From Methanothrix sp. (GTDB taxonomy: Archaea; Halobacteriota; Methanosarcinia; Methanotrichales; Methanotrichaceae), in the NCBI GenBank assembly GCA_024649985.1, contig JANKMW010000002.1, positions 1 to 35,072 of the forward strand: DNA of 35,072 nt. The letters run 5' to 3'. Positions 1 through 2,189 of this stretch are shown here, piece after piece. The stretch's first letter is position 1. Each line of letters begins with the position of its first letter. The notes under the pieces are model-generated. The model had not been told where the DNA came from, did not search any database, and saw nothing but the letters and a program-made list of their open reading frames with translations. A program made the position numbers and the translations under genes.

Positions 1-100
1 TTCGATCCATCTTTAAACGGTCTTCTTCGATCCATCTTTAAACGGTCTTCTTCGATCCATCTTTAAACGGTCTTCTTCGACCCATCTTTTTATAGTTCGT
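1..100. repeat. 25-bp tandem repeat, three perfect copies plus a decayed fourth
   Basis: Three identical 25-bp units occupy 1-25, 26-50 and 51-75. A fourth unit starts at 76 (ttcgacccatctt) and then diverges. Each unit contains ctttaaac, which resembles an archaeal box A, so the array is effectively a string of promoter-like elements ending at the working TATA box. The array may continue upstream of the window edge. Seen directly; the regulatory role is inference. Confidence 0.9.
86..94 (+). promoter_or_regulatory. TATA box of the Xaa-Pro peptidase gene
   Basis: The box ctttttata is centred near 90. Archaeal transcription starts about 26 nt downstream, which puts the transcript start at the ATG at 117 and suggests a leaderless mRNA. 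The box lies inside the decayed fourth repeat unit, which lost the TTTAAA core of its siblings. Confidence 0.6.
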
Positions 101-1316: not shown

Positions 1317-2189
1317 ATGGACGCTGAAGTGCTTGAGAAGTACAGGAAGGCGGGGGAGATCCTGGCACGGGTCCGGGACGATGCGAGCTCGATGGTCGAT
1401 GTAGGGGTCTCCATCCTGGAGGTGGCGGAGTTCGTCGAGGAGACGACCCGCGCCCTCGGCGGCGAGGTCGCCTTCCCCTGCAACATATCTCGGGACCGGG
1501 TCGCCGCCCACGACACCCCCCGCCCCGAGGACGGGGACGTCTTCGGCGAGAAGCTGGACATCGGCGTCCACGTCGACGGCTACATCGCCGACGCCGCCGT
1601 GACGGTGGATCTCGGCGGCCACCCTGACCTCGTGGAGGCCTCGGCAGCGGGGCTCGCCGCGGCGATATAGCTGGTGGGGCCGGGGGTGTCCACGGCGGAG
1701 CTGGGGGCGGCCATCGAGGAGGCCATCCGGGGATACGGCTACAGCTCCGTCGCGAACCTGACGGGCCACGGCCTCGGTCGCTACCGGGCCCACGGCGAGC
1801 CGTCGGTGCCGAATCGGCGGATCGAGAAGGGGGTGGTCCTCTCGCCGGGAGAGGTCATCGCCATCGAGCCCTTCGCCACCGACGGCGTCGGGAGGATCAC
1901 CGAGGCGCCCCAGGCGGAGATCTTCTCCTTCGTCGCCAAAAGGCCCATCAGGTCTCCCCCGGCGAGGTCCCTGTTGAAGGAGGTACTGGAAAATTACTCA
2001 ACCCTCCCCTTCGCCCGGAGGTGGCTCTCGGGAGACCGGATAGATTACGCCATAGGTCAGCTCCTCAGGGCGGGGATCCTCCATCGGTACCCCCTCCTCT
2101 GGGAGGCGGAGGGCGCCCTCGTATCCCAGGCCGAGGATACCGTCATCGTTACGGAGGACGGGTGCGAGGTGACGACCCGGCCGAGGTGA
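1317..2189 (+). CDS. map: Methionine aminopeptidase type II, interrupted by one in-frame UAG codon
   Basis: Removes the initiator methionine from nascent proteins. The reading frame from ATG 1317 stops at UAG 1668-1670 (codon 118) and continues in the same frame to TGA 2187-2189, giving 290 residues if UAG is read through. Ligands lie on both sides: substrate His H65 (AAHDTP), D81 and D92 (DIGVHVDGYIAD) before the stop; H151 (LTGHGLGRY), E184 (AIEPFATDG) and E273 (AEDTVIV) after it. Neither half could be active alone. The UAG falls in a helix just before LVGPGVS, at a position that varies in the family. A restart at GTG 1674 has no visible ribosome site. At least eleven other genes here end in UAG, so it is an ordinary stop in this genome. 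Readthrough, a nonsense mutation and a base-call error all remain possible. Confidence 0.85.

Follow-up and report, generated by a model that had tools for sequence, protein, structure and literature searches.

A lone in-frame TAG in the only methionine aminopeptidase gene found in a Methanothrix draft genome: most likely an ordinary nonsense base

When a stop codon interrupts an otherwise readable housekeeping gene in a methanogen, does it mark a recoded amino acid, an inactivated gene, a split enzyme or a flaw in the draft sequence? The question is raised by map, the gene for a type II methionine aminopeptidase (MetAP), in a stretch of 35,072 nucleotides from Methanothrix sp. (the whole of which we call the window). 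The window is part of a contig of 52,197 bp (C164) belonging to a draft genome of 2.09 Mb in 241 contigs, 95.2% complete, which falls in the Methanothrix harundinacea group; among its congeners are genomes that were deposited under that species name. The map frame runs on the forward strand from ATG 1317 to TGA 2187-2189 (290 codons), and in the assembled sequence it is interrupted by one in-frame TAG at codon 118. The features of the locus are the following:

117 to 1271, + strand: intact M24 peptidase of 384 aa next to map, a neighbour conserved in congeners
1317 to 1670, + strand: 5' part of map, codons 1 to 117 and the TAG, with ligands D81 and D92
1467 to 1469, + strand: codon GTC for Val51, where congeners have CCN (Pro)
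1550 to 1551, + strand: point at which 9 bases that relatives have (GAG-ATG-GTG, E-M-V) are deleted in frame, directly before KLDIGVH
1668 to 1670, + strand: in-frame TAG, where 7 of 7 full-length congeners have GAG (Glu)
1674 to 2189, + strand: 3' part of map, which can be opened from GTG 1674, with H151, E184 and E273 and the TGA end

Read through the TAG, map matches the TIGR00501 profile with 315.4 bits (cut-off 222.65), and the match spans profile positions 2-295 of 295. This TAG is the only one within the match, and the gene shows neither another stop nor a frameshift. A sequence-only reading of this DNA had proposed that the frame is the same before and after UAG 1668-1670, with D81 and D92 on one side and H151, E184 and E273 on the other; both points are borne out by the single frame and by the positions of the five metal ligands (D, D, H, E, E), which are all kept. 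The best solved relatives of the product are Pyrococcus-type MetAPs, and the full-length profile match and the five ligands are what it shares with the archaeal type II enzymes (TIGR00501; Pyrococcus furiosus MetAP, PDB 1xgs). It departs from them in that its reading frame is not uninterrupted, owing to the TAG, and in that three residues are missing before the first ligand strand. Gene order around map is conserved in the genus: the neighbourhood is syntenic in congeners, the upstream M24 peptidase and four downstream genes are intact, and alignment gaps are almost nil.

Because some methanogens, the Methanosarcinaceae, use pyrrolysine, and the map frame is conserved across the UAG, one explanation would be that a dedicated tRNA places pyrrolysine, or some other amino acid, at this codon. 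We give this explanation next to no credence. A search for the core motif of tRNA-Pyl (pylT) that allowed as many as 3 mismatches gave no match in this genome, about 95% complete, or in the congeners G001 and G008, whereas the motif was found without a mismatch in 3 of 3 control genomes, inferred from their size and kinship to be Methanosarcinaceae. Profile searches of the genome for PylS, PylB and PylD gave no hit that came near the curated cut-offs, and the 39 predicted tRNAs, an incomplete inventory that is without tRNA-Tyr and tRNA-Trp, include none with a CUA anticodon. The release factor aRF1 is present. In the surveyed part of the genome, TAG ends 35 of the 187 orthologue-supported ORFs, and for all 32 surveyed TAG-ended genes the stop of the G001 orthologue lies at most 4 residues away, being TGA in 9 of them. 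The earlier count of at least eleven window genes with UAG as their stop holds as a crude figure (11 of 35 ORFs, one of them antisense), but falls to 3 of 17 among orthologue-supported ORFs. Map also differs from the known cases of pyrrolysine decoding, with which it shares the in-frame UAG in a methanogen gene, since it is not a methylamine methyltransferase gene and its ancestral codon is that of Glu, the residue that congeners have at codon 118. On the tRNA, enzyme and terminator evidence, pyrrolysine and any other recoding of UAG were rejected; UAG serves as a stop in this organism, and its reassignment is very unlikely.

Two observations on the tRNA genes may be recorded here. Seven of them (L131, L132, L142, L148, L150, L152 and L153) contain introns of about 12-37 bases, and one of these, L152, which ARAGORN called SeC (tca), was rejected as such, being by eye an intron-containing tRNA-Arg(UCG).

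The comparison with relatives shows what the codon was. In the alignment, codon 118 is GAG in 26 of 28 family genomes, the two exceptions being GCG and AAG, and the proposed check of close relatives gave GAG throughout the genus among full-length copies. The TAG thus goes back to a single G-to-T substitution in a codon that is conserved for Glu, and the site is less variable than the suggestion of a variable helix residue implies. In one further congener (G007, C99), the contig stops near codon 126, 4 bases past its match to map, and the N-terminal half is absent from the assembly.

Selection on the gene was followed through its substitution rates. After the stop, dN/dS of map against congeners is 0.09-0.27, as compared with 0.12-0.26 for the same part in pairs of intact congeners, and purifying selection looks normal on both sides of the stop. 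Normal dN/dS past the stop, together with the lack of any further stop or frameshift, indicates that the stop is either very recent or absent from living cells. Map is present in 60 of 61 related genomes and in one copy here. The possibility of a second map gene elsewhere, raised in the sequence-only reading, found no support in the assembly, which lacks about 5% of the genome: its M24 genes are two only, map and the adjoining 384-aa peptidase, both in the window. In Bacillus subtilis, map is described as essential in the text cited (PMC1266368); our literature search returned nothing specific on this gene or genus.

Because map is near-universal and single-copy, without another M24 candidate, and is constrained on both sides of the stop, a fixed or tolerated loss is unlikely; the most economical and the likeliest explanation is that the consensus base is wrong or belongs to a minority. 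On this reading the TAG is an ordinary stop, made from GAG by a single G-to-T change in the one map gene that was found; the living population would encode a full-length MetAP, with the consensus base of the draft being wrong or representing a minority allele, and we infer that the population is not fixed for this base. To this reading as a whole we assign about an even chance. It is supported by the nature of the sequence, a draft scaffolded assembly in which N runs interrupt conserved genes, among them Nre and aRF1, and by the intact flanking genes. Such N runs are presumably typical of scaffolded short-read assemblies, and some could be masking. Further support comes from a non-amber nonsense codon in a second, otherwise intact gene of the same genome.

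That second codon came from a survey of about 200 genes with orthologues in this genome and G001, which together amount to 64-71 thousand codons; it is a survey that covered about 0.76 Mb of the former genome and 1.2 Mb of the latter and required that mismatches concentrate at codon position 3. Two clear mid-gene nonsense codons were found in well-supported genes, the TAG of map and a TAA in an alkaline phosphatase gene (C163, L281, around 6227), so that the lesions are not specific to amber codons. Lone nonsense codons of differing kinds hence occur in about 1% of the surveyed genes, and both of these are G-to-T/C-to-A changes. The alkaline phosphatase frame is otherwise intact around its single in-frame TAA, where two congeners have TAC; the gene was not found in several congeners and carries a TAG in G007. 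From this patchy presence and the G007 TAG, it looks dispensable, and the copy may be a true pseudogene, which weakens the parallel as support for a sequence error in map.

Several apparent lesions did not survive closer inspection. Many in-frame stops of the first survey belonged to antisense or over-extended ORFs, and most were removed by the codon-position-3 filter; several of those that passed it lie upstream of the likely true start, and the residual hits fall in ORFs that are short or over-extended. An apparent frameshift in Nre (C18) was a gap made by an N run, an apparent break in aRF1 (C221) was likewise an N run, and what looked like an internal TAG in an aRF1-like paralogue (C185) was the normal terminal stop of that gene. 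As a separate observation, a large N6-methylase gene of the restriction-modification type does not have the same frame and length in G001 as in this genome (L172 10097-11878, L155 12456-13949), with a TGA in G001 where this genome reads on.

The description of the gene as an otherwise perfect methionine aminopeptidase could not be maintained. Three codons (E-M/I-V) are missing from map between residues 78 and 79, just ahead of KLDIGVH, the strand that bears D81, and residue 51 is Val at a nearly invariant position that is Pro in congeners and nearly all of the family. The three-codon gap was seen in no relative of the alignment and in none of the motif-matched methanogen and ANME-type loci (haloarchaeal loci did not fit the motif and were left unscored), and Pyrococcus furiosus MetAP has the three residues. 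Such changes are atypical of base-calling errors and, lying in the same gene, count against a wrong or minority base; they fit a map copy that is really relaxed or decaying, and are the main evidence that selection on it might be relaxed. The corresponding explanation is that a recent, real nonsense mutation inactivated map in this lineage or strain, MetAP being dispensable or encoded in the unassembled 5%, and the deletion and P51V would then reflect relaxed selection. Both neighbours of the doubly altered gene are intact, and true pseudogenes occur in the genus, with the alkaline phosphatase as a probable example; yet map is nearly universal in relatives, there is no second copy or other M24 candidate in the assembly, and the constraint is intact past the stop, so that inactivation would have to be very recent. 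We regard this explanation, the main rival of the wrong or minority base, as possible but doubtful.

A stop that is real and tolerated would require either low-level readthrough of the UAG by a near-cognate tRNA, or a restart at GTG 1674 that yields two half-domain chains able to assemble into an active enzyme. The architecture lends itself to this, each half being a clean M24-fold part with its own ligands, the GTG lying 3 bases after the stop and opening the entire second half, and both halves looking constrained. However, GTG 1674 has no Shine-Dalgarno-like GGAGG immediately before it (the nearest one lies more than 30 bases away), no relative has a split map, UAG terminates normally elsewhere in the genome, and a suppressor tRNA was not found in the incomplete tRNA list. 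Tolerance of a real stop is improbable on this evidence. It is quite improbable in its strictest form, namely that the TAG is real and fixed and that the sole MetAP, its N-terminal half already altered by the three-codon deletion and P51V, is made as two half-domain chains from the GTG 1674 restart or by UAG readthrough. If the stop were indeed real, fixed and tolerated in a near-universal single-copy gene, it would be a striking example either of a stop that is read through or of a housekeeping enzyme made in two pieces.

Among the four options first put forward for this codon (recoding, readthrough, an error, and a nonsense mutation backed by another map gene elsewhere), error and nonsense mutation stay in play, while recoding is unsupported and the second map was not found. 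The closest known parallels to the locus are nonsense pseudogenes and single-lesion draft genes, which likewise present a lone point nonsense codon in a conserved frame, as does the alkaline phosphatase TAA of the same genome. It differs from nonsense pseudogenes in that map is nearly universal and single-copy, and in that a small in-frame deletion is added to the point change. The TAG in map is most likely either a wrong or unrepresentative assembled base or a recent disabling mutation, and hardly a sign that the genetic code is read in a new way. The main value of the analysis is that the pyrrolysine reading is closed, and that the map entry should be annotated neither as recoded nor as two genes.

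A last observation concerns the edge of the contig. Window positions 1-89, which form the start of C164, consist of a 25-base tandem repeat, TTCGATCCATCTTTAAACGGTCTTC, in 3.6 copies with 98% matches, and this repeat is probably the cause of the assembly break there.
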